Assembly: GCA_013298595.1 (NCBI GenBank)
Contig: JAAFIG010000054.1
Span: forward strand, 1-18,114
Reading direction: 5' to 3'
From: Deinococcales bacterium
GTDB taxonomy: Bacteria; Deinococcota; Deinococci; Deinococcales; JAAFIG01
DNA length: 18,114 nucleotides
The position numbers were made by a program, and so were the translations under genes. A model generated the notes under the pieces. It was given only the letters and a program-made list of their open reading frames with translations. It had not been told where the DNA came from and did no database searches. Below are positions 302 to 18,114 of this stretch, in pieces; within the stretch, counting starts at the first letter, position 1, and each line of letters starts with the position of its first letter.

Positions 302-952
302 TTACTTCTGATGCCGCCGCTCGAGTTCAGCCGCGACATCCGTTAAGGTTACACCAACTTCAGCCATGACCCACATCGTATGAAACAACAAATCTGAAGC
401 CTCGAGGGTTAACTCGGCTTTATCGCGGTTTTTAGCTGCAATAATCACTTCGCCTGCTTCTTCACCGATTTTTTTCAAGACCCGATCCAAACCCTGAGCA
501 TGGAGTTTAGAAACATAACTGTTTTCCGATGGATTCTGAATTCGATCCAGAATCGTGGCATACACTTCGGATGTAATAAATCCAAAACTTGAGGTACTGG
601 GCACTTCACCTTCGAGGTTATTGTGAAAACACGAATGCTGATTGGGTTGGTGGCACGCATCCCCAGTTTGCTCGACAGTGTACAGCACAGCATCGCCATC
701 GCAATCTAGGGTTACTGCTAAAACCTTTTGGGTATGCCCAGATTCTTTGCCTTTGACCCACAAAGCATTGCGTGACCTCGAGAAATACGTACCACGTTTT
801 GTCTCGAGGGTTTGCTCGAGCGCTTGTCGGTTGGCATATGCCAGCATTAGCACACGCCCAGAACCAGCTTCTTGGGCAATGACAGGTACTAAACCACTCG
901 AGTCGAACGTGATGGATTGAATAGAGAAAGGTGGGAGAATATCGGCTGGCAT
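302..952 (-). CDS. hisIE: Bifunctional phosphoribosyl-AMP cyclohydrolase / phosphoribosyl-ATP pyrophosphatase
   Basis: This enzyme catalyses steps 2 and 3 of histidine synthesis in the cytoplasm: HisE hydrolyses PR-ATP to PR-AMP and HisI opens the adenine ring. The 216-residue protein has the HisI domain first (about residues 8-115), with the metal motif DCDGD (83-87) and zinc cysteines C100 and C108. The HisE domain follows (about 130-216), with the helix KKIGEEAGEV (160-169) and D187/H191. The frame is open to an ATG at 988, but that ATG lies in the middle of a palindromic repeat, so the start at 952 is chosen. It has a GAGG ribosome binding site about 6 nt upstream. The gene follows hisF on the same strand after 91 nt and is probably co-transcribed with it. 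Confidence 0.95.
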   Translation of the reverse strand: MPADILPPFSIQSITFDSSGLVPVIAQEAGSGRVLMLAYANRQALEQTLETKRGTYFSRSRNALWVKGKESGHTQKVLAVTLDCDGDAVLYTVEQTGDACHQPNQHSCFHNNLEGEVPSTSSFGFITSEVYATILDRIQNPSENSYVSKLHAQGLDRVLKKIGEEAGEVIIAAKNRDKAELTLEASDLLFHTMWVMAEVGVTLTDVAAELERRHQK

Positions 953-973
953 ACAAGACCTCGTTGTTCGGTC

Positions 974-1001
974 GTAGGGGCGAGGCATGCCTCGCTCCTA
1001 C
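974..1001. repeat. 28-bp palindromic REP-like element between hisF and hisIE
   Basis: This is a nearly perfect 28-bp palindrome centred between 987 and 988, with only one non-Watson-Crick pair (979/996). Its core is GCGAGGCATGCCTCGC. A related core followed by the same CTACGG-type flank occurs at 3338-3353. It sits in the 91-nt gap of the his operon, so its transcript would fold into a strong hairpin between the two genes. This could stabilise the upstream mRNA or attenuate transcription. Similar palindromes are common dispersed repeats in many bacterial genomes. Confidence 0.75.
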
Positions 1002-1043
1002 GGTTGATTAAAGATTTGTTTTTGTGGTTGGCGAGCCACGGTT

Positions 1044-1805
1044 TTATAGCCTAACGGATACACCTCGAGATGCTAGGTGTTCTTTGACTTGCCTGACTGT
1101 ATAGGTACCAAAATGGAAGACACTGGCTGCCAGCGCAGCATCAGCTCGTCCAATGGTTAGCACTTGCTCAAAATCCTCGAGGGTGCCAGCACCGCCTGAT
1201 GCCACAATGGGAACATCCACTTCGGCTTTGATTGCGGCGCATAACTCGAGATCAAAGCCTTTTTTGGTACCATCACCATCTATGCTGTTAAGAACTATTT
1301 CGCCTGCGCCTAAGGCTTGGGCTTTGGCTGCCCACTCGAGGGCATCCAAACCTGTGGGTTCTCGTCCACCTTTGATATAGGTTTCCCAGCCTTGCCCGTT
1401 GGCACGGCGTTTGACTTGCATACTCAGCACCACGCATTGGCTACCAAAATGATCGGCAGCAGCCCGAATGAGGTCTGGGTTTTTGACTGCCCCTGTATCT
1501 ATGCTGACTTTGTCTGCGCCTGCTAAAGTCAGTTTGCGAAAATCCTCGAGAGTAGTTACGCCACCACCGACAGTTAAGGGCATGAAAATGCTTTCGGCAA
1601 CTCGAGACAGGGTCTCGTAGATCAGTCCGCGTCCATCGGAACTAGCTGTGATGTCGTAGAAGACGAGTTCGTCGGCGAGTTGAGCATCGTAGCGTTTGCA
1701 TAGCTCGAGCGGATCGCCGACATTGCGGACATTTTGGTATTGCACACCTCGAGTGACTTGTCCTTGGTCAATGTCGAGGCAGGGAATGATGCGCTTATAA
1801 ATCAC
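1044..1805 (-). CDS. hisF: Imidazole glycerol phosphate synthase subunit HisF, with Gln at the catalytic Asp130 position
   Basis: HisF is the cyclase half of IGP synthase. With HisH it converts PRFAR and ammonia to IGP and AICAR. The 253-residue protein is a full-length (beta-alpha)8 barrel: CLDID with catalytic D11, phosphate loops TVGGGV (78-83) and ASGGAG, the [10 protein letters not shown] loop and the C-terminal [12 protein letters not shown] segment. The usual motif AIDAKR reads SMQVKR here, so residue 130, the second catalytic Asp in the Thermotoga maritima enzyme, is Gln (codon 1416-1418). The start is GTG at 1803-1805, and upstream purines are weak. No hisH is visible in the window. 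The family is certain; full activity is uncertain because of the substitution. Confidence 0.95.
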
Positions 1806-1915
1806 GCAGCGATTCTAACAGCTTCCTCGAGTGCTTGTTTGAATTGCTTTTTTGGTATATTTATTTTCTAATTTAATAACAGAAACATAAAATCTCAATC
1901 AATTAGAAAATAGAC

Positions 1916-1945
1916 TTGACAAAATATAAAGCTATGGTTTATATT
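1916..1945 (+). promoter_or_regulatory. Sigma70-type promoter for the 58-codon gene
   Basis: A perfect -35 TTGACA (1916-1921) is followed after 18 nt by a -10 TATATT (1940-1945). The surrounding 1860-1945 stretch is strongly AT-rich. Transcription would start about 10-13 nt upstream of the AGGAGG ribosome binding site at 1952-1957. Confidence 0.8.
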
Positions 1946-1964
1946 TATTTCAGGAGGCACCACC

Positions 1965-2141
1965 ATGAATCACTTCGCACAAATGATCGAAATCGGCAAT
2001 CATAACCTCGAGCAACTCCGCACCGAAGCCAGCATCGCCGCTTTACAAACCAAACCAATCTCTTTGCGCCGCCGAATCGCTCGAGTCCTCAAAAGCGTGG
2101 CACAAATCATTGACCACCAACCAACGCTGGCTCGAGTATAA
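1965..2141 (+). CDS. Small basic protein of 58 residues, function unknown
   Basis: The ORF starts at ATG 1965, with a perfect AGGAGG (1952-1957) 7 nt upstream and a strong promoter before it, so expression is very likely. The protein starts MNHFAQMIEIGN. It has a central acidic/neutral helix and a basic segment ISLRRRIARVLKSVAQ (residues 32-47) that would form an amphipathic cationic helix. It has no cysteines, signal peptide or membrane segment. I do not recognise a family. The gene stands alone, transcribed away from hisF and towards the amidase gene, and its stop codon overlaps that gene's terminator. The cationic helix could bind nucleic acid, a membrane or a protein partner; the sequence does not decide this. 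Confidence 0.75.
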   Translation: MNHFAQMIEIGNHNLEQLRTEASIAALQTKPISLRRRIARVLKSVAQIIDHQPTLARV

Positions 2142-2167
2142 AAAAAGGCAACCACAAAGGCTGCCTT
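2139..2167 (-). terminator. Intrinsic terminator of the amidase gene
   Basis: The arms AAGGCAACC (2145-2153) and GGCTGCCTT (2159-2167) pair with one wobble around the loop ACAAA. On the minus strand the hairpin is followed directly by a run of T (complement of 2140-2146). It lies 18 nt after the stop codon of the minus-strand amidase gene. On the plus strand no T-tract follows, so it serves the minus strand only. Confidence 0.85.
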
Positions 2168-2185
2168 GAGAAACCACAAAAACAA

Positions 2186-3307
2186 TTAACTGGTTAGCTT
2201 AGCCCATGTATCAGGTCCAACAATGCCATCGGCAGTTAAACCCTTACTGGTCTGAAAACTTTTTACCATATTCGCTGTACCTGTACCAAAAGCCCCATCC
2301 ACAGTGATGGCATAACCTCGAGCTTTTAACTGACTCTGCACAGCCCGCACTGCATCACCATTCGCACCAGATTGCACGTTTACTACCAAAGATTCCCAAC
2401 TATACCGACCAACAATGCCATCTGCCGTTAAACCCTTGCTGGTCTGAAAACTCTTGACAACATTCTCGGTGCCTGTACCAAAAACACCATCGGCGGTAAC
2501 AGCGTACCCTCGAGATTTCAATAAGTACTGCACAGTACGAACTCTTTCGCCTGTATCAGGTTTTTTAGTGGTCACCCAAACTCGAGAAATCGTGTTACCT
2601 GTACCCAGTTTAGTAGCAACATCACGGCGTAACTGCCCAAGTTTGGCGTACAACATATCCCCAGGGCAATCGGTGGCAATAAAATCCCGATGCCCATAAA
2701 TCCGATCCGAAGCAATACCGTACTGCTGACAAATAAAAGCACAAAATGTCACCAATTGATCGTATTGCGCTTGAGGTGGCAGCGTTGTCATGTAGGTACC
2801 CTCGTTTTCGATACCAATGGCAATATCATTCTGTCCAGGACAATGTGCGCCACTGACCATATTCGCTTGGCTATTTAACGTTTCTAAACTGCGATGCCGC
2901 GCCTCAAGAATAAAACCACCTCGAGAAATCGTAAAATGCTGCCCAGAATCGATCCAACCGTTACTATCCATATGAAAATTCTGGATATTGCGTGCCAACG
3001 TATAAGCTCGAGTTTGCGAGTAATCGGTGGTGTTCTGATCGTTGGTGTGATGCACAATGATCTTATCGGGTTTTGCCCCAGTTAAAACCACAGGGCTACT
3101 CGAGGGGCGGGCATTCCAAGCACTGGTACCAGCAATACTTGGTGCTGCCACGGCTTGTAACTCGAGGGTGGCAGGTACATCAGGCTCGAGGGTAGGTATT
3201 TGGTTGCAGCCTACCAGCACGCCAGCGCCTAAGCCTAGCCCTGCTAGTAAAACCGAACGTCTCGAGACTGGTACTTGATGATTTGCATCGCCGCATAATT
3301 CGCACAT
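2186..3307 (-). CDS. Secreted N-acetylmuramoyl-L-alanine amidase with two peptidoglycan-binding domains
   Basis: This predicted enzyme cleaves the bond between muramic acid and the peptide stem in the cell wall. From ATG 3307 the protein has 373 residues. The N-terminus carries a twin arginine (SRRS, 15-18), a hydrophobic segment and a lipobox-like VLVGC with Cys34, so it is probably a Tat-exported lipoprotein. The Amidase_2/PGRP domain spans about 65-232, with likely zinc ligands in VHH (85-87), H206 in GHRD and C214 in TDCPG. The H206-C214 spacing equals that in T7 lysozyme. Two PG_binding_1 repeats follow (about 254-309 and 315-371). The start at 3307 has AGGAG 6 nt upstream; the longer frame would run into a palindromic repeat. 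The gene follows the other hydrolase gene by 63 nt. Confidence 0.93.
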   Translation of the reverse strand: MCELCGDANHQVPVSRRSVLLAGLGLGAGVLVGCNQIPTLEPDVPATLELQAVAAPSIAGTSAWNARPSSSPVVLTGAKPDKIIVHHTNDQNTTDYSQTRAYTLARNIQNFHMDSNGWIDSGQHFTISRGGFILEARHRSLETLNSQANMVSGAHCPGQNDIAIGIENEGTYMTTLPPQAQYDQLVTFCAFICQQYGIASDRIYGHRDFIATDCPGDMLYAKLGQLRRDVATKLGTGNTISRVWVTTKKPDTGERVRTVQYLLKSRGYAVTADGVFGTGTENVVKSFQTSKGLTADGIVGRYSWESLVVNVQSGANGDAVRAVQSQLKARGYAITVDGAFGTGTANMVKSFQTSKGLTADGIVGPDTWAKLTS

Positions 3308-3324
3308 ATAAGCTCCTGAGCTAC

Positions 3325-3373
3325 TAACCCATAAAGGGCGAGGCACGCCTCGCTGCTACGGGAGTATGGGTTA
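3325..3373. repeat. Palindromic REP-like element inside a larger inverted repeat
   Basis: The core GCGAGGC-AC-GCCTCGC (3338-3353) is closely related to the palindrome at 974-1001, with one base changed at its centre, and is followed by the same type of flank (GCTACGG versus CCTACGG). It is enclosed by a perfect 9-bp inverted repeat, TAACCCATA (3325-3333) and TATGGGTTA (3365-3373). The right arm covers the stop codon of the upstream hydrolase gene. In RNA this would be one long hairpin between the two hydrolase genes. Confidence 0.7.
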
Positions 3374-4294
3374 ATAAAACAAGACATCCCAATGGTTGCC
3401 TTCTTTAGCGTAAATATCGCCTCGGGTATTCTGGTACAAAGGAGCACTATCGCCAGCTCGTAAACCAATGTAGGTAAAACCATTTTGAATGTAATTATTA
3501 AGGCAAGTACTCAAAGCAAAATCGAGTTTATACCCATTGTAATGACTAAAGGTTGTGGTGGCATGACCAACTTCAGTGCCACCAGTAACGGTTAAACTGC
3601 ACCCAGAAGCGCTTTTTAAGGAAATTGCAGCGCGAATACTGGCAGCTCGAATTTGCTCGAGGGCAGTGCAGGTGCTGTTGTTGCGATTAATGCAGTTACC
3701 ACTCGAGGAAACAGGAATACCAGCCGTGGTTAAACGGCTACGGGCGGTAGCATCAGAAAGTTTGACAGCGGCTTTGTTGGTAATTAACGCACTCCATGTA
3801 GACAAAACCACAATGCCATCATCGGTGCTATCTCGAGAACGCTGAAAGTTTTGCACAGCATTTTTGGTGCCATTACCAAAAGCACCATCTATACTCAGGG
3901 TATACCCAAAATCGTTGACCAATTGGTCTTGTACCGCTTTGACTGCATCGCCACTCGAGCCGTTTTGTACGGTTACAATCAGTTTTTCCCATGTATCAGC
4001 ATTGATGATGCCAGTAACTGACAACGCATTGGCACTTTGGAAATTTTGTACTGCTGTTTTTGTACCATTGCCAAATTGCCCATCAGCATTGATATTTTGC
4101 CCTCGAGCACGCAGCAAATACTGAGCTGAGACAACATCTCGACCACTCGAGCCGTTTTGTAAAGTCACCCATGGCAAACCAGAAGCCAACAATTCCAACG
4201 ATGGCGGCAAATTATTATCCGCAACAACTGGAACAGGCGAGTTTGTACATGCACCAAGGACGGCAAGGGCTGTGATCCACAACATGCTTCGCAT
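3371..4294 (-). CDS. Lipoprotein with two peptidoglycan-binding domains and an M15-like peptidase domain
   Basis: The 307-residue protein starts with a short lipoprotein signal (lipobox VLGAC, Cys16). Two PG_binding_1 repeats follow (about 44-104 and 112-172), then a C-terminal domain (about 200-307) with SHYNGYKLD (250-258) and EGNHWD (298-303). This pattern of H251, D258 and H301 matches the zinc site of M15/hedgehog-type DD- or LD-peptidases, so the domain probably cuts peptidoglycan stem peptides outside the membrane. The M15 assignment comes from motif reading, not alignment. Four cysteines in the last domain (201, 209, 232, 264) may form disulfides. The ATG at 4294 has GGAGG 7-8 nt upstream. 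The repeats resemble those of the neighbouring amidase, which suggests duplication of a binding module. Confidence 0.85.
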   Translation of the reverse strand: MRSMLWITALAVLGACTNSPVPVVADNNLPPSLELLASGLPWVTLQNGSSGRDVVSAQYLLRARGQNINADGQFGNGTKTAVQNFQSANALSVTGIINADTWEKLIVTVQNGSSGDAVKAVQDQLVNDFGYTLSIDGAFGNGTKNAVQNFQRSRDSTDDGIVVLSTWSALITNKAAVKLSDATARSRLTTAGIPVSSSGNCINRNNSTCTALEQIRAASIRAAISLKSASGCSLTVTGGTEVGHATTTFSHYNGYKLDFALSTCLNNYIQNGFTYIGLRAGDSAPLYQNTRGDIYAKEGNHWDVLFY

Positions 4295-4554
4295 AAGAAA
4301 ACCTCCGATAAATTTTTCGCTTCACTGCAACCTAACACAAGCAGCAATTGTGCCGCAACGCCCTAAATTGTCATCAAAGGCAGATTGAATTCGTAATTCA
4401 ACGCAGAATTGATGCTTATTTGGATTCCATGCCAATTAGCTCTGGTAAAGGTTCGAGGTTCCAACAGTGATGAGCAGTATTTATGGCTTCAGAACCACTC
4501 GAGAATACTCGTCAATACTGCAAATGACCTATCTGTAAATAACAAAATTTCGAG
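4295..4554. other. Divergent intergenic region with an inverted repeat
   Basis: I see no gene in these 260 bases. They separate the minus-strand M15-like lipoprotein gene from the plus-strand metallopeptidase gene and should contain both promoters. A 17-nt inverted repeat TTGAATTCGTAATTCAA (4385-4401) has 7-bp perfect arms and could be an operator, though AT-rich palindromes of this size can arise by chance. Confidence 0.4.
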
Positions 4555-4560
4555 TATAAT
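4555..4560 (+). promoter_or_regulatory. Perfect -10 box placed for leaderless transcription
   Basis: A consensus TATAAT lies 10 nt before the ATG at 4571. Transcription normally begins about 7 nt after a -10 box, so the mRNA would start at or within a few bases of the start codon. No Shine-Dalgarno sequence is present between them. No good -35 is visible at the expected distance. Leaderless genes of this layout are frequent in Deinococcus. Confidence 0.6.
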
Positions 4561-4570
4561 TCTTCTCAGC

Positions 4571-5224
4571 ATGAAACCAGAATCCACCTCACATACAGCC
4601 ATGACCAAACTCGAGTATTCTTTGGCGATGTTCACTGCCAGCGCCCAAACAGGAAGATACAGCTCACGGGCAGTCAACATTCACGGCAAAACCATAGATT
4701 TAACCGCTGGACTACGCATCGCAGCCGAAGATATTGTGGCACGAATGCCCGAACTCCAACACATAGACCTCGAGAAAGTACACTTCTCGGTGTTTTACTC
4801 CAGACACGCCAAACGTATCCTGACCTTTGCCCGTTGCTACCCACTCCCCAGTGGCACACGCAAACGCGGGCGCTACACCTACCGCCTCGAGCCAGTTATG
4901 ACAGACCATGGCAAAAAAGCCAAATACATTGTCGCATTTGCTTGGGAACGCTTCTGGAATCTTAGCCCACGCGACCGCCTCGAGACACTGGTACACGAGT
5001 TATTTCATATCTCACCAAATTTCGACGGCACTTTGCGGCAATTTGGTGAAAAAGTCCACGGCAAAGGACTCGAATGGTTCGACACCATCGTCTATGCCTT
5101 ATCCGAACTGTACTTACCACACGAACTCGAACTCGAGCACCCAGTCTTATCCTTGAACCTCACACCAGGACTCGAAGTCACCTTCGACAAACTCAAACCA
5201 CCACGTTGGATGCTCGAACCTTAA
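4571..5224 (+). CDS. Putative zinc metallopeptidase of the phage metallopeptidase type
   Basis: The 217-residue protein has a zinc-binding HELFH motif (142-146) followed by [17 protein letters not shown], with H163 as a probable third ligand. This combination is typical of the PhageMetallopep family (SprT-like zincins), whose substrates are not well established. The N-terminal 130 residues show a conserved-looking core with H71, H79 and C89 but no signal peptide, so the protein is cytoplasmic. The frame is open back to 4409, but the start at 4571 is chosen because of the TATAAT 10 nt upstream; ATG 4601 is an alternative. Its stop codon overlaps that of the convergent mgsA in the sequence TTAA. 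The C-terminal part, after about 185, is Leu/Pro-rich and unassigned. Confidence 0.8.
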
Positions 5225-5622
5225 TTCGGCAACGACAAGGTACTCTGTTGCTGCTCGAGCCACAACGCCACAGCCTCGGCAGTGACACGATTTGTGGCAA
5301 GTGGCACATGATGCACATCGCAAATCCGCAACAACGCTGAAACATCTGGTTCGTGCGGTTGTGCGGTCAACGGATCACGATAAAAAAACACTGCTAAAAC
5401 CCGATCCTCCGCTACAGCACCACCAATTTGCTGATCACCACCGAGTGGACCAGACAAAAACCGCATCACCTCGAGACCCGTCGTCTCGGTGATGACCTTT
5501 GCCGTTGTACCCGTACCAATCAAACGAAACCGTGCAAACAAGGCTTTTTGCTCGAGCACAAACCGAGCCAGGTCGTCTTTTTTATCGTCATGAGCGATTA
5601 ACGCAACCAAAGTCCGAGACAT
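5221..5622 (-). CDS. mgsA: Methylglyoxal synthase
   Basis: This enzyme converts dihydroxyacetone phosphate to methylglyoxal and phosphate, a glycolytic bypass that releases phosphate. The 133-residue protein is shorter than the E. coli enzyme (about 150) because it lacks the N-terminal extension. It contains H11, the phosphate loop GTGTT (36-40), [12 protein letters not shown] with catalytic D63, the FFYRDPL strand with D83, and H90 and D93. The frame extends 4 codons upstream to another ATG (5632-5634), but [12 protein letters not shown] fits the family start. No Shine-Dalgarno is obvious. A TATGCT lies 7 nt before the ATG, so leaderless transcription is possible. The gene converges with the metallopeptidase gene, sharing overlapping stop codons. 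Confidence 0.93.
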
Positions 5623-5652
5623 AGCAAAAAGCATAGCAGTTTAGAAATTTTC

Positions 5653-5756
5653 ATGCGGATAAGAAACATCCGCCCCCACCCAGACAATAGCCGCGCAAGG
5701 AAGAAATTCCAAGCAGCAGATAAGCGGCTAAAAATTAATCTGGGTGGGCGTTTTTT
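5653..5756 (+). ncRNA. Structured RNA leader ending in a terminator-like stem, class unknown
   Basis: The stretch can fold into nested stems. Hairpin A is GCGGAT (5655-5660)/ATCCGC (5668-5673). The outer stem is CCCACCCAGA (5675-5684)/TCTGGGTGGG (5739-5748), a perfect 10 bp followed by CG and six T. Inside it lies TAGCCGC (5688-5694)/GCGGCTA (5724-5730), then GC/GC, a symmetric AA/AA loop and GGAA-GAAA-TTCC (5699-5710) capped by a GNRA tetraloop. The outer stem could extend by using CGC at 5671-5673, which also belongs to hairpin A, so the two may compete. It lies 30 nt before the small peptide gene. It could be a regulated terminator, a riboswitch or a small RNA with its own terminator. It matches no class I can name. 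Confidence 0.6.
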
Positions 5757-5785
5757 CATGGCTGCGCCCGAGCTGTGGAGTAAAT

Positions 5786-5917
5786 ATGAAAAAGGTTCTG
5801 GCATGGTTTTTTGTTATTGGTATACTTGGAATTGCAGCAATAGGCACAACTCAATTACTACAACCAACACCGTTGTTGCTGGCAGATGACCCAAAAACTG
5901 GTAGTGGTGGCGGCTAA
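5786..5917 (+). CDS. 43-residue secreted-peptide precursor, candidate signalling peptide
   Basis: The ORF starts at ATG 5786, with GGAG (5777-5780) 5 nt upstream, and ends at TAA 5915-5917. The peptide opens MKKVLAWFFVIGILG, two lysines followed by a hydrophobic segment through about residue 20. A polar tail follows, containing LLLADDPKTG and a Gly-rich end. This is the layout of a Sec-exported pro-peptide. Its stop is 17 nt before the GTG of a TPR regulator. In RRNPP systems (Rgg, NprR, PlcR, Rap) small exported peptides encoded next to TPR receptors act as pheromones after processing and re-import. I infer the same role here. It could also be a small membrane or lipid-associated protein. 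A structured RNA precedes it and may control it. Confidence 0.65.
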   Translation: MKKVLAWFFVIGILGIAAIGTTQLLQPTPLLLADDPKTGSGGG

Positions 5918-5934
5918 ACCATTACAATGCCAAT

Positions 5935-7554: not shown

Positions 7555-7570
7555 TACAAATACACTCAGA

Positions 7571-7587
7571 TAATCTATTATAGATTA
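7571..7587. promoter_or_regulatory. 17-nt perfect palindrome upstream of the WYL regulator
   Basis: TAATCTATTATAGATTA has 8-bp perfect arms around a central T and is followed by AAAGCTTTATA. It lies in the 89-nt gap before the WYL regulator gene. The AT-rich symmetry suits an operator or promoter element; it is a poor terminator because no GC stem is present. Confidence 0.5.
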
Positions 7588-7609
7588 AAGCTTTATACCA
7601 TTCTCGACA

Positions 7610-7633: not shown

Positions 7634-7643
7634 CTAAAAAATC

Positions 7644-9621: not shown

Positions 9622-11078
9622 CATACACAAGGGATGCACCTGTTGGTTTACGCTGGACTGGACACCCTTTTATAGATATGGGCGTAGCTGGTTTAACGGT
9701 TTTTGCTCAGAAACGCCGCCCTGAAGAAGTGACGGGCGCACATCTCGAGGAATTTGTTACATGGGCAGATAAGTCGTATCACACAAAGGAAATTACGGCT
9801 TGGGTGGCAGTTGCTTTTACACTAAACGGATTTATGAATGTAAGTTTTACTCCCGAGAAAAAACGCGAATCTGTCCATGAAGTGCTAACCAGTTTTCAAA
9901 AACCAGCCGAGTTACCAGATGAACAATGCGCGTATTTTGGAACAAAAGCTCAACAACTGGCTTCTCGAGATTTAGTACCATTATTAACGGGGCGAGAACC
10001 CACAAATTTTGGTGCAGATGGTCAAATTGGACTGGCATTAAGTGGCTTAGCTATCACAACGCTTCAAGGTTTGTCAGTAGCTGCTCCGCTGGTAGGTGGT
10101 CGGATTATGGTGGTTGATACCGACGACCCAAAATTACTGCTTTATTTAGTTAAGCAATGGCAACCAGAGATTCGTAAACGCGCTCAGTTATCCGAAACCA
10201 GTGGTGAAAAAAGTGGTGGTTGGAGTGCGCCTCGCTCGAGGTTAATCGAACAAATTATTAACATTGAACGCGCCCAGCAACACCAATCAAATCCTGATCT
10301 CGAGTACACAGGCAGTGCCACGATTTACCATGCCAGTAACAGCGGTCAGGGTCCGGATATGACCGTGTATAGCCTCGAGATTCCTGCTTTGCAATTTGTC
10401 CGAAAAGCCCAGAATGTGCGTTTTGCTGATGGCTGGCAGCGTTTAACCAGTGCGGCTTGGCAAGAAGCTGGCAAAGACAAAGACCCTGAATATGGCAAGC
10501 GTAACGATGTCTACGAAGCTGTTTTTAGTCTTCCGCTCGAGGCTCACCAATTTATTCGGCGTTTTTTCTTATACCCAGTTCAGGGGCAACTACAAAAACC
10601 AAAAGTTGTTGAAACCAAACGCAGCAAGAAAAAAATCGAGGAAACAACCAGTGTTGCCACTGTGCCACCCGCCCCACTTTGGGATTTGCTCAAGTTATTT
10701 GTTATGGAGGTTTTAGGCATGGATAAAAATCGGATTGAAGCCATTCGCACACTAGCAGACAGGTTAGCAAGTGCGGTACAAGAAGATAATGATCGGCGAT
10801 TATTTCAAAAAATTTATACCACCAGAAAATCTTTTGAGGCTCGGCAATTACTGATCCAAATGGGAATGCGACACTTAAAAAAAGGTCTCGAGCCTGCAGT
10901 GCGATTTGATGAGTACCTCGAGATTTTTGAAGAAGGCGACGAACTTGCCCGAGCCGATTTTGGTTTGGCTTGGGATTTAACGCGAATCAGATTTATCGAA
11001 ACATTATTTGCAACAAAGTGGTTTGACGGTAATCAAGAAGCACTCGAAGAAATTGAAGAAACCCAAGGAGAAAATTAA
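9618..11078 (+). CDS. cas8b1: Type I-B Cascade large subunit Cas8b1 (Cst1-like), zinc motif degenerate
   Basis: The large subunit recognises the PAM and positions Cas3. The 486-residue protein opens with WTGHPFIDMGVAGL (13-26), the typical Cst1 start, and later has SRDLVPLLTG, NFGADGQIGLALSGLAITTLQ and GGRIMVVDTDDPKLLL, which follow the Cst1 pattern. Family members usually carry two CxxC zinc pairs; here only C104 of the first (CAYFG) remains and the second is gone. The last 119 residues are helical and can also be made separately as Cas11 from an internal start at 10719. AAGGAG lies 5 nt before the ATG, which overlaps the cas6 stop (ATGA). The family call is from remembered motif patterns. 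Confidence 0.85.
   Translation: MTYTRDAPVGLRWTGHPFIDMGVAGLTVFAQKRRPEEVTGAHLEEFVTWADKSYHTKEITAWVAVAFTLNGFMNVSFTPEKKRESVHEVLTSFQKPAELPDEQCAYFGTKAQQLASRDLVPLLTGREPTNFGADGQIGLALSGLAITTLQGLSVAAPLVGGRIMVVDTDDPKLLLYLVKQWQPEIRKRAQLSETSGEKSGGWSAPRSRLIEQIINIERAQQHQSNPDLEYTGSATIYHASNSGQGPDMTVYSLEIPALQFVRKAQNVRFADGWQRLTSAAWQEAGKDKDPEYGKRNDVYEAVFSLPLEAHQFIRRFFLYPVQGQLQKPKVVETKRSKKKIEETTSVATVPPAPLWDLLKLFVMEVLGMDKNRIEAIRTLADRLASAVQEDNDRRLFQKIYTTRKSFEARQLLIQMGMRHLKKGLEPAVRFDEYLEIFEEGDELARADFGLAWDLTRIRFIETLFATKWFDGNQEALEEIEETQGEN
10719..11078 (+). CDS. cas11: Probable internally translated Cascade small subunit Cas11
   Basis: Inside cas8b1, in the same frame, ATG 10719 is preceded by a perfect ATGGAGG Shine-Dalgarno (10704-10710) at 8-nt spacing. 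Translation from it gives 119 residues, corresponding to Cas8 residues 368-486. The product is predicted almost entirely helical (MDKNRIEAIRTLADRL, then two more long helices). In several type I-B, I-C and I-D systems the small subunit Cas11 is produced this way from the 3' end of the large-subunit gene, and no separate cas11 gene exists in this operon. The size and fold match Cas11. I see the signal directly; production of the protein is an inference. Confidence 0.75.
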   Translation: MDKNRIEAIRTLADRLASAVQEDNDRRLFQKIYTTRKSFEARQLLIQMGMRHLKKGLEPAVRFDEYLEIFEEGDELARADFGLAWDLTRIRFIETLFATKWFDGNQEALEEIEETQGEN

Positions 11079-11079
11079 C

Positions 11080-12153
11080 ATGGCTTTTATTAACGGAATT
11101 ATTTTGTTAGACGCACCAGCTTCGGCATTGAACAACTCGAACAAAGCCGCCGATGCGGATTACGATAACGAAGTGGGCGTAAAAATGATTAAAACCAAAG
11201 AAGGCGCATTGCCGTATGTTTCGGCGCAATCGTTTCGTTTTTGGTTACGCAGTACCTTAGAACAAAACCCAATTTGGAAAGCCCACACAGCCCCAATTTT
11301 CAGGGATAACAAAATTGCGTACACCGATGCCAACCCGCTTAAATGGTGGGATGATGATTTATTTGGTTATATGCGAGCAGAATCTAAAAAAAACACTGCC
11401 AAAGAAGCCAGAGCTGAAGCTGGTGAACGCAAAGACGAAACCGAAACAAAAACAAGCATCACACGCACCAGTCCATTTCGTATGAGTACCCTGGTGAGTA
11501 TTGCACCAATGAGTTTAACCAAGGATTTTGGCACCATGAGCCGACACGAAGGCGACCCCGTACCACACTCACATCAGTTCTACCGTGCCACCCTCAAAGG
11601 CTTATTCAGTTTAGACTTAAACCGTGCTGGAACGTTTTCATACCGTGACCAAAGCGGCTCGAGAAACCTTGATGAAGTCCGCATTGGCATGGCTAAAGAA
11701 CAAGGTTTAGAACACAATGAACCAAATAAAGAATACCGACTGTCACTCGAGGAACGCAGCAAACGAATCTCGAGTTTACTTAGCGGATTGGCACACCTTG
11801 AAGGCGGAGCTAAACAAGCAATTCATTACACCGATGTCACCCCGGCAATCATTATGGCAGTGGTTCTAAAAGGTGGTAACAACCCACTGCATTACGTAGT
11901 TGTAGCCGATGAAAAAGGCAAACCAGTAGTGCATGTAGAAGCCCTCGAGCAAGCCGTTGCGGTCTGGAAAGATAAGATGCTAGGCAAACTCTATGTGGGT
12001 TGGGTCAAAGGTTTTCATGACCATGAACGCCAAAAACTCGAAGCTGCCTTAACAACTTTGAAGTTTGCATACCAGCTTGACCACCCAAGAGTCATTCTCG
12101 AATCACTTGCCACTGACGTACAAAACCCAGCAAACGCTCATTGGCTGGAGTGA
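11080..12153 (+). CDS. cas7: Cascade backbone subunit Cas7 (Cst2/DevR family)
   Basis: Cas7 polymerises along the crRNA spacer to form the Cascade backbone. The 357-residue protein has the DevR/Cst2 hallmarks: NGIILLDAPASALNN (5-19), a VKMIKTKEGALPYVSAQ strand-loop and SFRFWLRSTL (51-60). The middle holds TKTSITRTSPFRMSTLVSIAPM, resembling the conserved central strand of the family, with a charged insertion before it (KKNTAKEARAEAGERKDETE) that probably forms the flexible thumb. The longer frame begins at 11008, but ATG 11080 has AAGGAG at 9-nt spacing and lies 1 nt after the cas8 stop. Confidence 0.92.
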   Translation: MAFINGIILLDAPASALNNSNKAADADYDNEVGVKMIKTKEGALPYVSAQSFRFWLRSTLEQNPIWKAHTAPIFRDNKIAYTDANPLKWWDDDLFGYMRAESKKNTAKEARAEAGERKDETETKTSITRTSPFRMSTLVSIAPMSLTKDFGTMSRHEGDPVPHSHQFYRATLKGLFSLDLNRAGTFSYRDQSGSRNLDEVRIGMAKEQGLEHNEPNKEYRLSLEERSKRISSLLSGLAHLEGGAKQAIHYTDVTPAIIMAVVLKGGNNPLHYVVVADEKGKPVVHVEALEQAVAVWKDKMLGKLYVGWVKGFHDHERQKLEAALTTLKFAYQLDHPRVILESLATDVQNPANAHWLE

Positions 12154-12158
12154 ATGTC

Positions 12159-12941
12159 ATGCGTGTACTGAAAATTGAACTCGAGGGTTTAACGACTTCG
12201 TTTCGTTACCCGCATTTCTTGGTTGGACGACAACCAAGTTTTCCAATGCCGCCACCCGCCACAATTTACGGTCATATTGCCAGTGTATTGGGTGCGTACC
12301 CAAACCCAGATTCGTTTCGATTTGCTTACACCTTTACGCATAGCGGCAGTGTGGATGATTACGAACACACTTGGCTGATTAAAGTGGATCGCAGTGCCAG
12401 AGGTTGGCAGCACCCAGCTAACATCAGCGCCAATATGAACCCAACATTACGCCAAATTTTCTATGCTCCAAAACTTACGCTTTACCTCGAGACACCGCAT
12501 TTAGACGAGTGGTATCAAGCCTTTCTCGAGCCGCGTTACCCTGTGGCACTCGGGCGCAGCCAAGACTTAGCCAGTTATCAAAACGTACAAATCATTCAAC
12601 TACAGACCAGTGATACAGGCTATTACGACCATACACTCTTGCCGTGGTCGTACCGTCCTCGAGTTCGTGTTGGGCAGGGTATTCTCATGCCTAGAATCAT
12701 CAGTACAGAAAATCGCCGCGATGTCACATGGGCAAGGTTTGTCAGTCTCGAGAATCGGATTTTTCATCCTCGAGCAGGAGAGAAAAGTGTGCCAAGCGAA
12801 GTGATGACAGTCATGGCAAATGCCGAACCTGTGCTGATAGACCCGAGTAGCCCAATGCACCGCGAACGACAACGAATTTTAGTCTGGCATAGCCTAACTG
12901 GTTTAGAAAGCGAAGCTTTAGATAGGAGTGTCAGTGTTTGA
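12159..12941 (+). CDS. cas5: Cascade subunit Cas5
   Basis: Cas5 caps the 5' handle of the crRNA in Cascade. The 260-residue RAMP protein starts MRVLKIELEGLTTSFRYPHF and continues with PSFPMPPPATIYGHIASVLG (27-46), the classical Cas5 segment. ATG 12159 has GGAG at 8-nt spacing and is 5 nt downstream of the cas7 stop. The upstream in-frame ATG at 12141 lies within cas7 and lacks a ribosome binding site. The placement between cas7 and cas3 is standard for type I-B. No catalytic role is expected because a separate Cas6 is present. Confidence 0.93.
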   Translation: MRVLKIELEGLTTSFRYPHFLVGRQPSFPMPPPATIYGHIASVLGAYPNPDSFRFAYTFTHSGSVDDYEHTWLIKVDRSARGWQHPANISANMNPTLRQIFYAPKLTLYLETPHLDEWYQAFLEPRYPVALGRSQDLASYQNVQIIQLQTSDTGYYDHTLLPWSYRPRVRVGQGILMPRIISTENRRDVTWARFVSLENRIFHPRAGEKSVPSEVMTVMANAEPVLIDPSSPMHRERQRILVWHSLTGLESEALDRSVSV

Positions 12942-15279
12942 ACCCCTTGCCAAAAGTGCTTCACACAGCCCAAGTGGTAAACCCGAAACCCTCGAGGAAC
13001 ACACCCACCAAGTGGTCAAACGCCTTATCGGCGTGATGACCCGCACACCCAATTTAACAGCTGTGACACACCAAGAAAACCTTTGGCACATAGCTTTTTG
13101 GGCAGCTGTAATGCACGACTTTGGCAAAGCCGCCACGGGATTTCAAAAGGTACTCAACGGCTCAGGTGAAAAGTACAAACAACGTCATGAGGTTTTATCA
13201 CTTACTTTTCTGCCGTGGATTGCCACAGCAAACGAACAAAAACTAATCGCTCTTGGTGTGATTTCGCACCACCGAGACGCAAGCATTATTGAAAAAATGT
13301 ACGAGGACTCGAGCGGCACAGAGTTACTCAAAGAATTTGAACCACAAGCCATACAGTGGCTCAAACACTGGCTTGAACGAGTGCCAAACACTTGGATAGA
13401 ACTGTACAAACTCGAGGCTTTTGGTGTACAAAAAAAAGCATTTCAAATCAACTTTGAGAACTTTCACGAAGAAGCCTGTCAAGCCCTCGAGCAAGGAATT
13501 TGTTTATACGCCAACATCAACAAAATAGACGAACCCTACCCAGATGAACCAGAATTTGAAACCCTGAAACTCGAGCGACGACTACATTTAATACTGCGCG
13601 GCATCATCACCCAGTCAGACCGCATGGCAAGCGCTGAAGCACCCATCCCAGAAGCTTTACAACTCCCAAGTCTCGAGACCCTAACCCAGCAAATGTCCAC
13701 TCGAGAAAACAAAAGTATTCAGCCACGAGCGCACCAACTTGCCGCCCAACAACTCGGTAACATTATTTTTAGCGCTCCAACAGGCAGTGGAAAAACCGAA
13801 GCTGCACTGGGCTGGGCAGCTGTGCAACAAAGCCAAAACCCACGGCGCTTAATTTACGCCCTGCCTTATCAAGCCAGTTTGAATGCCATGCAAGCACGCT
13901 TAATACGAGATTTACAGCCCAAAGATGGCGTAGCAATATTACACAGCCGAGCCGTACAAGTGTTGTACCGCCAAGGACTCGAACAAGGCGAAGACATTGC
14001 GACCCTGACAAAAAACGTTCGCCGACAACGAGACTTCAATAAATTACACCAACCCGCTATTGCTGTTCTCACACCCTACCAAATGCTTAAAGCTGCTTAC
14101 CGATTATCTGGGTACGAAGGCATTCTGACGATGCTGGCAGGCTCGAGCCTGGTGCTGGACGAAATACACGCTTACCAACCAACTCGTTTAGGAATGTTCC
14201 TAGCCCTCACCGAGACGCTCTACAAAGACTTTGACGTGCGAATCTGCGCCATGACTGCCACCATGCCAAGTTGGTTACGCAGCGAACTCGAGACTCGTTT
14301 AGAAGTCAAAGCCTTACCTGCTGATCAAGATTTATTTCTAGCCTCGAGACGGCACCGCCTAGAGCTACGCGACAAAGCAATCGAAGACCCCGAGATAATT
14401 AAAGAAATCATTGCAACAGTCAATGCTGGAAACAGCATTTTGGTTGCTTGCAACACCGTCAAAAAAGCCCAAGCCATCTGGGAAACCCTCAAAACCCAAT
14501 TACCCAACACCTTACTACTCCACAGCCGCTTCACAGGCAAAGATCGCCTAGAAAAAGAACAACACATCCAACAATTACTCGATGCCAGCACCCAACAACA
14601 AAACGCTATTGCTGTTGTCGCTACACAAGTCATCGAAGTATCACTCGACCTAGACTTTGACCGCATCATCAGCGAACCAGCCCCACTTGAAGCCCTTGTC
14701 CAACGCTTTGGACGAGTCAATAGACGCGGACACAAAGGCGAAAATGGCATTGTCCCAGTAACCGTACTCACCCTGCCTCGAGATGGACAAAAAATCTATG
14801 ATGACAGACTCATCGAACGTGGACTACAACAACTCGAAGCCAATGAAAACATCGAACTAGACGATCTTATCGTCTCAAGCTGGCTAGATAGAATATACAC
14901 CGACGAAGTACTACACGAATTTCAAAGCGAAATGCAAAACAGTGCCAAAGAATTTACGCACAGCGTTATTCACACCCTGAAAGCATTTGAAGCTGACGAA
15001 ATGCTCGAGAAACAATTCGATGCACTATTTGACGGCATACAAGTACTACCCAAATGCCACTATACAGATTTTGAAAACGAAATCATAACCTCGCCCATCG
15101 AAGCTCGGGGTTACATGGTCAACGCACCACGCTGGATACTCGGCGGACTGAAAGAACACGTTATCTGGAACGAAACATACAAACTTTTAGTAGCAGATTT
15201 GGAATACAACAAAGACATTGGAATGCAATGGCGACCACGGACACCAAGCGATGATGCTTGGGGCAAACTCGACGACTAA
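12934..15279 (+). CDS. cas3: CRISPR nuclease-helicase Cas3
   Basis: Cas3 is recruited to the R-loop and degrades the target DNA processively. The 781-residue protein has an N-terminal HD nuclease (about 10-235): EEHTHQVV, MHDFGKA, KQRHEV and SHHRD supply the metal-binding His/Asp residues. The SF2 helicase follows: Walker A SAPTGSGKT (about 281-289), DEIH (about 409-412), MTATMP, VVATQVIEVSLDLDFD and QRFGRVNRRG (about 590-599). All key motifs are intact, so it should be active. Two GTG starts compete. The one at 12934 is chosen because AGGAG (12924-12928) lies 5 nt upstream; GTG 12928 overlaps that site. It overlaps cas5 by 8 nt. An intrinsic terminator follows the gene. Confidence 0.95.
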   Translation: MFEPLAKSASHSPSGKPETLEEHTHQVVKRLIGVMTRTPNLTAVTHQENLWHIAFWAAVMHDFGKAATGFQKVLNGSGEKYKQRHEVLSLTFLPWIATANEQKLIALGVISHHRDASIIEKMYEDSSGTELLKEFEPQAIQWLKHWLERVPNTWIELYKLEAFGVQKKAFQINFENFHEEACQALEQGICLYANINKIDEPYPDEPEFETLKLERRLHLILRGIITQSDRMASAEAPIPEALQLPSLETLTQQMSTRENKSIQPRAHQLAAQQLGNIIFSAPTGSGKTEAALGWAAVQQSQNPRRLIYALPYQASLNAMQARLIRDLQPKDGVAILHSRAVQVLYRQGLEQGEDIATLTKNVRRQRDFNKLHQPAIAVLTPYQMLKAAYRLSGYEGILTMLAGSSLVLDEIHAYQPTRLGMFLALTETLYKDFDVRICAMTATMPSWLRSELETRLEVKALPADQDLFLASRRHRLELRDKAIEDPEIIKEIIATVNAGNSILVACNTVKKAQAIWETLKTQLPNTLLLHSRFTGKDRLEKEQHIQQLLDASTQQQNAIAVVATQVIEVSLDLDFDRIISEPAPLEALVQRFGRVNRRGHKGENGIVPVTVLTLPRDGQKIYDDRLIERGLQQLEANENIELDDLIVSSWLDRIYTDEVLHEFQSEMQNSAKEFTHSVIHTLKAFEADEMLEKQFDALFDGIQVLPKCHYTDFENEIITSPIEARGYMVNAPRWILGGLKEHVIWNETYKLLVADLEYNKDIGMQWRPRTPSDDAWGKLDD

Positions 15280-15321
15280 GGCACTATGGGAAGAAGAACG
15301 TGACCTCCGACGTACTCCCAC

Positions 15322-15349
15322 GACCCCCTCTTTTTTGAGGGGGTCTTTT
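15322..15349 (+). terminator. Intrinsic terminator between cas3 and cas1
   Basis: A perfect 9-bp stem, GACCCCCTC (15322-15330) and GAGGGGGTC (15337-15345), encloses a TTTTTT loop and is followed by TTTTA. It lies in the 85-nt gap after cas3, and the cas1 ribosome binding site begins 6 nt after the T-tract. No promoter fits between terminator and cas1, so cas1-cas2-cas4 must be transcribed by read-through or from a promoter within cas3. Confidence 0.88.
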
Positions 15350-15364
15350 AGAACAAGGAGTTTT

Positions 15365-16372
15365 GTGAATTTAACGATAGATCAACGCGGAACTTTTATT
15401 GGACTGAAATCCGAGCGGCTACAATTCAGACTCGAGGGACAACCATTGCGAGAAATTGCGCTGCGTGACCTCGAGACTTTAACGATTGTCACAACCGCCG
15501 CCAGTATTTCTTGTGATGCGATACGAGCAGCTTCTCAATTTGGCATTCAAATAGATTTGCTGGACTCAAGTGGTGATCCTTACGCGAAAATCTCGAGTCC
15601 TTACTTGGTGGGGACGGTGTCCACGAGACGCGCTCAGATGATGGCTTATTTGAACACCAAAGGTCTCGAGGTGGCAAAACACGCGGTTCGAGCGCGATTG
15701 AAAAATCAGGTGAATTTACTGCGGTACTTTGGCAAGTATCGCCGCGAAGCAGACCCGAGTGCTTACGCGATTATTGAAGAAACACTGCCAGCACTGCATG
15801 AACTCGAGCAGGATTTAGAGGCTGTGCAAGCCAATAATATCGATGAGGCACGGGATTTTATTCTGAGTATCGAAGGACGCGGTGGTATCAATTACTGGCA
15901 CGCAATTAGCGCTTTACTGCCCAAAGACCTCGAGTTTCCAGGACGACTCGGACGCGGTGCAACGGATATTGTCAATACTTGTTTGAATTACGGGTACGGC
16001 ATTCTATACGCCCAAGCCAGTGGCGCACTGAGTACCGCAGGACTCGAGCCTTACGCAGGATTTCTGCACACAGACCGACCAGGCAAACCCAGTTTAGTCC
16101 TCGATTTTGTCGAAGGATTCCGCGCTGCCATAGTGGATCGTGCGATTATCGCCACACTCGGACGGGGCTGGCGACCAGAATTTAAGGATGGAAAACTCGA
16201 GCCAAGCAGCCGCAAACGCATCGCAGAAGTGGTACTGGCTAGATTCGATGCCAGAGACACACACAAAGGCAAACGATTCAGGCTTAAAAGCATCATGGTG
16301 GCACAAGCTCGGACATTAGCGACTTTTCTGCGTGACGAAGGGGAATACCCAGTTTACGTAGCGAGTTGGTAA
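15365..16372 (+). CDS. cas1: CRISPR integrase Cas1
   Basis: Cas1 with Cas2 inserts new spacers at the leader end of the array. The 335-residue protein has the beta-strand N-domain (MNLTIDQRGTFIGLKSERLQ) and the helical catalytic domain with E170 (LSIEGRGG), H235 (AGFLHTDRPG) and D247/E250 (SLVLDFVEGFR), so the metal site is intact. The start is GTG 15365, with AAGGAG (15355-15360) at 4-nt spacing. The longer frame to 15218 would read through the terminator and is rejected. It leads the adaptation module cas1-cas2-cas4. Confidence 0.95.
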   Translation: MNLTIDQRGTFIGLKSERLQFRLEGQPLREIALRDLETLTIVTTAASISCDAIRAASQFGIQIDLLDSSGDPYAKISSPYLVGTVSTRRAQMMAYLNTKGLEVAKHAVRARLKNQVNLLRYFGKYRREADPSAYAIIEETLPALHELEQDLEAVQANNIDEARDFILSIEGRGGINYWHAISALLPKDLEFPGRLGRGATDIVNTCLNYGYGILYAQASGALSTAGLEPYAGFLHTDRPGKPSLVLDFVEGFRAAIVDRAIIATLGRGWRPEFKDGKLEPSSRKRIAEVVLARFDARDTHKGKRFRLKSIMVAQARTLATFLRDEGEYPVYVASW

Positions 16373-16426
16373 GGGTAGAGGAAAGAGAAACGAGGAAAGA
16401 GGAAGGCTTTTTTCTAAAAGGACATT

Positions 16427-16714
16427 ATGCTGATACAGGATTTGAAAAAACCAGGGAAACCAGTTTTGGTTCTTTATGACATCTCGGATGATAAGACACG
16501 TACAAAAATATCGGAGGCTTGTAAGGATTACGGACTAGACCGAATTCAATTCAGTGCGTTCTGCGGACGACTGACCCGCACAGCTCGAGAAGAACTTGAA
16601 ATGCGACTGGGCAAAACAATGGGCAATTATTACGGCGCAGTAACAGTAATTCAACTCGAGCAAAGCAATTTTGATAACTCATGGAGTAAGGAGAACCGTG
16701 ATAAACCCGAATGA
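16427..16714 (+). CDS. cas2: CRISPR adaptation protein Cas2
   Basis: Cas2 forms the dimer that bridges two Cas1 dimers in the integration complex. The 95-residue protein has the ferredoxin-like start KPVLVLYDISDDKTRTK, with D18 at the usual acidic position, then ACKDYGLDRIQFSAFCGRLT and a second beta-alpha-beta half. ATG 16427 has an AAAAGGA ribosome binding site about 5 nt upstream. The 54-nt gap after cas1 is purine-rich and holds nothing else. Its 3' end overlaps cas4 by 17 nt. Confidence 0.93.
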   Translation: MLIQDLKKPGKPVLVLYDISDDKTRTKISEACKDYGLDRIQFSAFCGRLTRTAREELEMRLGKTMGNYYGAVTVIQLEQSNFDNSWSKENRDKPE

Positions 16715-17267
16715 GTTACGCCAATACCATTATTGCCCACGGGTCATATTTTATGAACGATGCACACCCGTTCATCGGCAAGAAACACGACGCATGCAAT
16801 ACGGACGCGAAGCTCATGACACAGAAAATGCACTCGAGAAACAACGCAGTTTGCAACGATACGGATTGCACGAAGGACAACGCGAATTCAATGTGGTCAT
16901 GCACGCACCGAACCTCGAGTTACTAGGCACAGCGGATTTAATTGTCACAGTTGAATCGGAAACATACCCAATCGAATTTAAGGACAGCACACGCCCACCA
17001 GACCTTGGACACGAAATGCAGCTCTGCGCTTATGGCTTGTTGCTCGAGGCAACAAGAAACACAAGCAGTCCACGCGGATACTGGCACAGCACCCGCACAC
17101 GAGAAACATACGCCATCGAATTTGACACTAAACTTCGCAAACGCACCAAAGCCGCGATTGCAGACATGAGTAATTTTATTAAAGCAGAGCGATGCCCTGA
17201 ACCAACACCTCAAGTCGCTAAGTGCTTTGAATGCGAACTACGCAATTTCTGTGCGGATGTTTTTTAA
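16698..17267 (+). CDS. cas4: CRISPR exonuclease Cas4
   Basis: Cas4 trims prespacers and helps select those with a correct PAM. The 189-residue protein has a RecB-type nuclease site: H40 (GREAH), D80 (GTADL), E93-x-K95 (IEFKD) and Q108 (HEMQLCAYG). It also has the four iron-sulfur cysteines: C13 (YHYCPR) and C176, C179, C185 (KCFECELRNFC). The start is GTG 16698 with AAGGAG 4 nt upstream; the ATG at 16671 lies deeper in cas2 and lacks a site. Cas4 as the last gene, after cas2, differs from the more common cas4-cas1-cas2 order of I-B loci. Confidence 0.92.
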   Translation: MINPNELRQYHYCPRVIFYERCTPVHRQETRRMQYGREAHDTENALEKQRSLQRYGLHEGQREFNVVMHAPNLELLGTADLIVTVESETYPIEFKDSTRPPDLGHEMQLCAYGLLLEATRNTSSPRGYWHSTRTRETYAIEFDTKLRKRTKAAIADMSNFIKAERCPEPTPQVAKCFECELRNFCADVF

Positions 17268-17311
17268 GGCTCGAAAATCACTTTGTTCCCCAAAAACTCA
17301 ATAGATTTGCG

Positions 17312-17349
17312 AAACCGTGCCTGACAACAAAAAGGCACGGTTTTTATTT
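17312..17349 (+). terminator. Intrinsic terminator after cas4
   Basis: A perfect 10-bp stem, AAACCGTGCC (17312-17321) and GGCACGGTTT (17334-17343), with a 12-nt loop is followed by a T-rich tract. It ends the cas operon 45 nt after the cas4 stop and isolates the array from operon transcription. Confidence 0.92.
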
Positions 17350-17351
17350 TT

Positions 17352-17547
17352 CTTGAGGGTCTGCTAACACCCTCGAGAGCAAGAAAGCACCTTGTAAGCC
17401 ACCAGAGCCTCCGCAAAAGAAGCCCGAATTAACCCCCCAAAACGATTTGCGAAACCAAAAAAGGAGTACAATAAAACTGCGTCTGGTGCGAGGCGCGTGA
17501 TCCTTGACAGTTGAATAGAAAAACAAGATAATGCCATCTGGAACGTG
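17352..17547 (+). other. CRISPR leader region
   Basis: This is the sequence between the cas4 terminator and the first repeat, which should carry the array promoter and the integration signals read by Cas1-Cas2. A hairpin with GAGGGT (17355-17360) and ACCCTC (17369-17374) starts it. The 13-mer GATTTGCGAAACC at 17444-17456 repeats the one at 17304-17316, both preceded by a CCCC-AAAA stretch. The promoter at 17504-17532 is listed separately. The last bases before the first repeat are GAACGTG. No gene is visible. Confidence 0.8.
17504..17532 (+). promoter_or_regulatory. Promoter of the CRISPR array
   Basis: A perfect -35 TTGACA (17504-17509) is followed after exactly 17 nt by the -10 GATAAT (17527-17532). 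Transcription would start near 17539, about 9 nt before the first repeat, and proceed through the array on the plus strand, giving crRNAs with the repeat end ACTGAAAC as 5' handle. Confidence 0.85.
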
Positions 17548-18114
17548 GCGTTATACACAGCCTCGAGCGATAGAGGACTGAAACAGCTTTTTCGTCTGGT
17601 TGATAATCATCTTGCTTAAAAGCGTTATACACAGCCTCGAGCGATAGAGGACTGAAACGTAGTACTCTCCCTCACGCGTGAAAACGTTACAGCGCGTTAT
17701 ACACAGCCTCGAGCGATAGAGGACTGAAACAACCAGCATCTCACAGGCAAAAAACTAGTCGAGTTACGCGTTATACACAGCCTCGAGCGATAGAGGACTG
17801 AAACCTACTCTGCTTAACGACAATTCCCCAATCAGTTGCTATGCGTTATACACAGCCTCGAGCGATAGAGGACTGAAACATGGTGTGTTTAGAACCGATC
17901 AGGTTTTGAGCCGCGGCGTTATACACAGCCTCGAGCGATAGAGGACTGAAACGCCGCTACGCGCTCGAGGATTTGAGTTCCTTCTCTTTGCGTTATACAC
18001 AGCCTCGAGCGATAGAGGACTGAAACACACTGCTCACCAAGGCACTCGAGGCACTATCTGAGCGTTATACACAGCCTCGAGCGATAGAGGACTGAAACCT
18101 TACAAACTCGGACT
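17548..18114 (+). CRISPR. CRISPR array, at least 8 identical 37-nt repeats, continues past right edge
   Basis: Repeats begin at 17548, 17622, 17694, 17768, 17843, 17916, 17990 and 18062. Each is 37 nt, starts GCGTTATACACAG and ends GAGGACTGAAAC; I see no differences between copies. The seven complete spacers are 37, 35, 37, 38, 36, 37 and 35 nt; an eighth starts at 18099 and is cut by the edge. The repeat has a short stem CCTC/GAGG whose loop can close further by an A-U pair over a GCGA tetraloop. Cas6 cleavage after this stem would leave the 8-nt handle ACTGAAAC, close to the ATTGAAAC common in type I-B. The repeat contains CTCGAG. The leader is on the left, so the newest spacers are at 17585 onwards. 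None of the spacers matches another part of this window by eye. Confidence 0.98.

Follow-up and report, generated by a model that had tools for sequence, protein, structure and literature searches.

We report that CTCGAG is, very probably, a highly iterated palindrome (HIP) in the genome of an uncultured Deinococcales bacterium related to Deinococcus and Thermus, and that it is subject to a DNA-level pressure like that on HIP1 of cyanobacteria. The word drew attention in an 18,114-nucleotide stretch (contig JAAFIG010000054.1 of GenBank assembly GCA_013298595.1, positions 1 to 18,114; hereafter the window), for which a preliminary description made from the letters alone had proposed a HIP1-like genomic palindrome. 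This proposal was borne out by whole-genome counts, reading-frame phase tests, noncoding density, ortholog turnover and the genomes of relatives. The excess acts at the level of DNA and not of codons, and the pressure is strong enough to alter protein composition. Three features that mark a HIP were found: the palindrome is over-represented genome-wide by at least an order of magnitude (observed/expected 29, or 74–98 under Markov models with the sites masked), it occurs in coding and noncoding DNA and in all reading frames, and it spreads via point substitution with no conserved flanks.

Abundance of CTCGAG in the window and the whole genome

The window contains exactly 118 copies of CTCGAG, or 110 after removal of the eight in the repeats of a clustered regularly interspaced short palindromic repeats (CRISPR) array, and these counts match the approximate ones made by hand in the preliminary description. 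Base composition predicts 3.7 copies, a first-order Markov model 2.5 and a second-order model trained with the sites masked 2.36, with a maximum of 9 in 300 runs. Third- and fourth-order models without masking give 42 and 101 copies, solely because the words of such models are pieces of CTCGAG itself. Of the 64 palindromes of 6 bp, the second most frequent has 11 copies and 30 do not occur at all. As the preliminary description had stated, the sites occupy all three codon phases of the annotated genes (65/18/19), both gene strands and noncoding DNA (16 sites outside genes, 10 of them in the CRISPR array). Its suggestion that two zones devoid of sites (1–319 and 5560–5980) are meaningful did not survive: at a mean spacing of 152 bp, chance predicts about seven gaps of 432 bp or more, and five were observed, the gap at 5551–5983 being only the fifth largest.

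The window is contig 50 of the 68 in a 4,582,226-bp assembly (G000), in which CTCGAG occurs 27,159 times, or once per 169 bp, and the reversed word GAGCTC only 15 times. For the codon and spacing analyses below, 1.2 Mb of G000 was used together with samples of its relatives. Within this 1.2 Mb, the observed/expected ratio of CTCGAG was 29 by composition and 98 and 74 by site-masked first- and second-order Markov models; the latter two models gave 67 and 54 for noncoding DNA. Neither of the outcomes that the preliminary description had named as fatal to its reading, a genome-wide count near expectation and a full account by Markov models or codon usage, was obtained. The HIP1 core CGATCG is depleted to 0.06 of its expectation, so the word is not HIP1 itself. 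The four family genomes (G000, G001, G002 and G003; completeness across genomes, 91–94%) avoid almost every other 6-bp palindrome; in G000, for example, GAGCTC, GGGCCC, AGGCCT and TTCGAA are near zero. The observed/expected ratio of GGCC was 0.01–0.02 in G000, G001 and G003 and 0.37 in G002.

Pressure on DNA rather than on codons

Site density is equal in coding and noncoding DNA, at one per 174 bp in each, despite the lower guanine-plus-cytosine (GC) content of the latter. In the G000 sample, the three reading-frame phases hold 3382, 1501 and 1198 sites, and all three are enriched. Leu-Glu is spelled CTCGAG in 66% of cases, where a context-matched codon expectation is 3.1%, giving an odds factor of about 60; this expectation replaced a naive one of 1.4% and roughly halved the factor. 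In the second frame, [APST]-Arg-[VADEG] is spelled xCT CGA Gxx in 64% of cases against an expected 3.8% (a 44-fold enrichment in odds), and in the third, X-Ser-[SR] is spelled xxC TCG AGx in 38%.

These figures bear on the possibility that codon or dinucleotide preference, or an ancestrally high GC content, yields CTCGAG as a by-product. Some high-GC members of the order do show a moderate excess, and Leu-Glu is a natural context for CTC GAG. Against this stand a noncoding density as high as the coding one, the enrichment of the Arg and Ser frames, and codon use elsewhere in G000, a genome of 45% GC in which CTC makes up 8% of Leu codons and GAG 17% of Glu codons. We regard this explanation as refuted and give it almost no credence, in keeping with the earlier judgment that codon preference alone is insufficient. 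Genes and the DNA between them have similar enrichment factors, which indicates a single pressure acting on the six bases.

Each position flanking CTCGAG carries at most about 0.03 bits of information; the word therefore consists of these six bases alone and is not part of a larger element. A dispersed mobile or repetitive extragenic palindromic (REP)-like element carrying the word would account for many copies across a genome; since nothing is conserved outside the six bases and the sites in aligned genes change by substitution, this idea is likewise refuted, and its probability is negligible.

Sites in coding DNA avoid each other below about 20–30 bp in four genomes. In G000, the occupancy of Leu-Glu by CTCGAG was 0.41 at 12–20 bp from another site and 0.78 at 100–150 bp, and three relatives showed the same trend; no comparable short-range deficit was seen for other 6-mers, whether inverted or direct. 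Edge-corrected noncoding DNA showed no site avoidance at 12–30 bp, which makes a cost of mRNA hairpins a likelier cause of the spacing than the footprint of a protein; the derivation of a footprint from the spacing was rejected on this ground. Control of site density was also rejected, because Leu-Glu occupancy no longer changes with distance beyond about 100 bp.

Effect on protein composition

The Leu-Glu dipeptide is over-represented 2.1–2.4 times in all four family genomes (2.36 times in G000), and Glu-Leu stands at 0.96–1.01 (0.99 in G000). Leu-Glu not spelled CTCGAG is present at 0.80 of expectation, and therefore the entire excess of the dipeptide is due to the CTCGAG site. This excess corresponds to roughly three additional Leu-Glu in each gene and, by extrapolation, about 11,000 genome-wide, and the occupancy of Leu-Glu by CTCGAG is independent of position within the gene. 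A DNA-level signal is thereby seen reshaping a proteome, in which Leu-Glu is 2.4 times too common.

Turnover of sites and imported DNA

When G000 sites were compared with their counterparts in G001 orthologs (62% amino-acid identity), 43% were identical and 5% had one mismatch; the corresponding figures for other 6-mers were 11.5% and 24.5%. Sites in aligned genes thus change by substitution. At conserved Leu-Glu positions, joint occupancy was close to the product of the margins (0.50/0.44 with G001, 0.43/0.42 with G002 and 0.51/0.50 with G003), and this near-independence shows that individual sites are interchangeable and are lost and re-made in each lineage.

The words one transition away from CTCGAG (TTCGAG, CCCGAG and CTTGAG) are in about 2-fold excess at each of the three positions; the transversion neighbors stand at 0.8–1.2 as a class, and words with two mismatches are near 1. 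This transition halo indicates that sites decay through ordinary transitions and are not restored at once. The excess of CTTGAG is no greater than that of TTCGAG or CCCGAG; the CpG cytosine therefore does not decay faster than the other positions, an argument against 5-methylcytosine (m5C) at that base.

The longest site-free stretches of the genome are mostly low in GC and include accessory genes, among them an O-antigen ligase, a Prok-E2/ThiF/JAB defence gene and a gene for a protein with an integrase core. These low-GC, site-poor stretches look recently imported, as expected if imported DNA acquires sites slowly.

Islands of this kind would also suit a DNA uptake sequence, in which CTCGAG would be preferred during natural transformation so that DNA carrying it spreads, since foreign DNA would lack the word; moreover, Deinococcus and Thermus relatives are naturally competent. 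Like CTCGAG, the uptake sequences of Neisseria and Haemophilus are short, are greatly over-represented in their genomes and spread by substitution. However, known DNA uptake words, including these, are longer and asymmetric and occur about once per kb, whereas CTCGAG is a bare palindrome without flank preference, not the asymmetric motif of about 10–12 bases by which such words are recognized, and is found once per 169 bp. Leu-Glu occupancy also stops rising with distance from another site beyond about 100 bp. We consider an uptake function improbable.

Distribution among relatives

The bias covers the four family genomes and one genus of a sister family, is weaker across the order and is missing from one relative. 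The three other family genomes contain 26,619–28,178 copies of CTCGAG each, and in the sister-family genus there are 21,868 sites in 3.5 Mb (G012) and 14,690 in a partial genome of 1.9 Mb. Elsewhere in the order the Leu-Glu excess, as a sign of the weaker bias, was 1.96 in G008, 1.67 in G075, 1.43 in G059 and 1.28 in G070; the relative without the bias, G004, had 1.02. Twelve genomes of other phyla had 36–851 copies in 1.9–5.8 Mb. A literature search, which did not cover preprints and most subscription papers, returned no earlier report of a CTCGAG excess in Deinococcota. The graded strength, from none in G004 through partial in G008 and others to extreme in family f1, makes gain, loss and cause open to comparison.

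Relation to known iterated palindromes

HIP1 (GCGATCGC) of cyanobacteria is alike in being an exact GC-rich palindrome distributed genome-wide, in and outside genes, with no conserved flanks and with spread by substitution. Its core is also present in each repeat of Synechocystis CRISPR1 (PMC6604393), as CTCGAG is in the repeats here. It differs in the word itself (here of six bases) and the phylum, and in density: HIP1 occurs about once per 1131 bp in Synechocystis (PMC6604393), and CTCGAG is about six times denser. Moreover, the present word is accompanied by a Leu-Glu protein bias, and no methyltransferase common to its carriers was found. The alternate HIPs of cyanobacteria, namely GGCGCC in Calothrix PCC 7103, rCCGGy and GCsGC, are also short palindromes in strong excess, and replace HIP1 in single genomes (PMC4390886). 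Unlike CTCGAG, whose excess extends over one family and some of a sister family and, in weaker form, over the order, they are sporadic, in one genome each, and come with a fitting methyltransferase. In Nocardia, CTCGAG is the target of an orphan methyltransferase and the motif clusters in the genome; those clusters lie near dnaA and are not spread genome-wide as here (PMC4752239).

Methyltransferases and the XhoI system

A solitary methyltransferase recognizing CTCGAG had been suggested in the preliminary description. We searched for members of PF00145, PF01555, PF07669, PF02384 and PF02086, compared the matches all against all, and found none common to the four family genomes. Each of these genomes encodes several methyltransferases, none shared by all carriers of the bias, with specificities that are not readable from sequence. 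The suggestion is therefore unsupported; with genomes 91–94% complete and a search confined to five Pfam families, the result counts against a conserved solitary enzyme without disproving it. The best candidate is an HhaI-like m5C methyltransferase of 376 amino acids on contig 15 of G000, shared with G001 (74% identical, syntenic) and G012 (59%) and without an ortholog in G002 or G003.

These results weigh on the methylation-coupled ratchet that Elhai put forward for cyanobacterial HIPs, according to which a CTCGAG methyltransferase would mark the site, strand-directed mismatch repair would preserve site-creating mutations, and the word would accumulate without any use. In its favor, Elhai (2015; PMC4390886) found that wherever a palindrome is highly over-represented in a cyanobacterium, the same organism has a methyltransferase that could act on that palindrome. 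In addition, an orphan methyltransferase of Nocardia targets CTCGAG (PMC4752239), the HhaI-like enzyme is common to G000, G001 and G012, and the transition halo fits a non-equilibrium process. On the other side, G002 and G003 have the same CTCGAG density without an ortholog of that enzyme, no other methyltransferase of the five families is common to the four genomes, and the lack of extra CTTGAG gives no sign of m5C deamination at the CpG. We rank the ratchet next after selection through a reader protein, discussed below, and judge it possible but unlikely.

The XhoI endonuclease (PF04555) is absent from families f1 and f2 and was found only in three f4 genomes and, as a broken copy, in one f3 genome; the methyltransferase found together with XhoI elsewhere in the order likewise lacks orthologs in f1 and f2. 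With both partners absent, an XhoI/PaeR7I restriction-modification target was rejected as an account of the word. That broken copy, at G009:C1:1095688-1096226, is interrupted by a frameshift or by stops, and its genome holds 6,704 copies of CTCGAG. Within genus g10, the XhoI-bearing genomes G018, G042 and G048 have 1390–1947 copies compared with 3640–4718 in G010, G014 and G030, which lack XhoI; about half the number is as expected for restriction avoidance. In genera g16 and g7, relatives of the XhoI-associated methyltransferase (61–68%) are present in many genomes in which no XhoI endonuclease was found; they are candidate solitary CTCGAG methyltransferases, in genomes mostly without a CTCGAG excess. 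Two probable restriction-modification pairs were seen in G000: an Eco57I-type methyltransferase after a 307-amino-acid protein of no known kind on contig C11 (L044:402-2826), and a PF01555 methyltransferase before a 275-amino-acid protein, NotI-like by eye, on contig C34 (L071:1399-3245).

Proposed explanation and significance

In our reading, a lasting sequence-specific pressure on DNA itself very probably maintains CTCGAG, a short exact word, at its very high density. Sites would arise by point mutation and would be kept because a cell protein binds, or modifies, CTCGAG for a chromosome-wide task, for which repair, nucleoid structure, segregation and marking of self DNA are candidates. Each site would give a small gain, an odds factor of about 40–60 corresponding to a scaled selection of about 4. 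By a modest preference, we take selection through such a reader protein to be the likeliest cause, ahead of a bias in mutation or repair. A more specific version is put forward tentatively, as a possibility we would not yet favor: a sequence-specific, non-methyltransferase protein of a Deinococcota lineage may read CTCGAG about every 170 bp as a chromosome-wide punctuation, and selection may in this way set some 11,000 dipeptides.

Three points weigh against selection through a reader. No protein that reads or writes the word came to light; telling selection from biased repair would take population data; and if selection on the complete word were constant and at equilibrium, the transition neighbors would be neutral, whereas a halo was observed, so that either selection varies in time or the process is partly one of biased mutation. 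The genomes of the order with a weaker bias are likely to have cultivated members, from whose lysate a reader could be isolated.

The signal is of the same kind as HIP1, in an unrelated phylum and about six times denser. To our knowledge, the purpose of HIP1 has been open since 1995. In practical terms, such DNA is fragmented by XhoI, and the bias also affects composition-based binning and codon analysis of these genomes.

The CRISPR locus and other features of the window

The coordinates of sites and genes in the window are collected in Table 1.

Table 1. Positions of CTCGAG sites, site-free DNA and annotated features in the window
Feature	Position	Strand	Remarks
CTCGAG sites (118)	320..18081	none	First site 320, last site 18076; one per 152 bp on average
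Intergenic stretch	1806..2185	none	Four CTCGAG (1826, 2007, 2080, 2131); bias outside genes
Largest site-free stretch	10923..11657	none	741 bp gap; end of cas8 and start of cas7; within chance range
TPR protein	5935-7554		Upstream of cas operon
WYL regulator	7644-8684		Upstream of cas operon
Complete type I-B CRISPR-Cas operon	8671-17264		Cas6, Cas8b, Cas7, Cas5, Cas3, Cas1, Cas2, Cas4
CRISPR array	17548..18098	+	Eight identical 37-nt repeats GCGTTATACACAGCCTCGAGCGATAGAGGACTGAAAC, one CTCGAG per repeat
CTCGAG in sixth spacer	17964..17969	none	
CTCGAG in seventh spacer	18045..18050	none	

Two of the seven complete spacers contain CTCGAG (17953–18061), compared with about 0.05 expected from ordinary DNA, which suggests that the invaders, or the chromosome if the spacers are self-targeting, share the bias. 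The protospacers of four spacer cores had no match in viral contigs. In the region at 5560–5980, which had been described as a structured RNA, no Rfam family was detected at the gathering threshold. Variant copies of the CRISPR repeat are located at G000:C23:126993-127326 and G000:C20:66839, and one variant has lost the site by a single transition (CTCAAG). A search for CTCGAG-dense viral contigs returned mostly GC-rich contigs in which GAGCTC was also high. Three IMG/VR viral contigs (L311, L364 and L326) have a 12–14-fold excess of CTCGAG and no GAGCTC, and may represent viruses of hosts with the bias.

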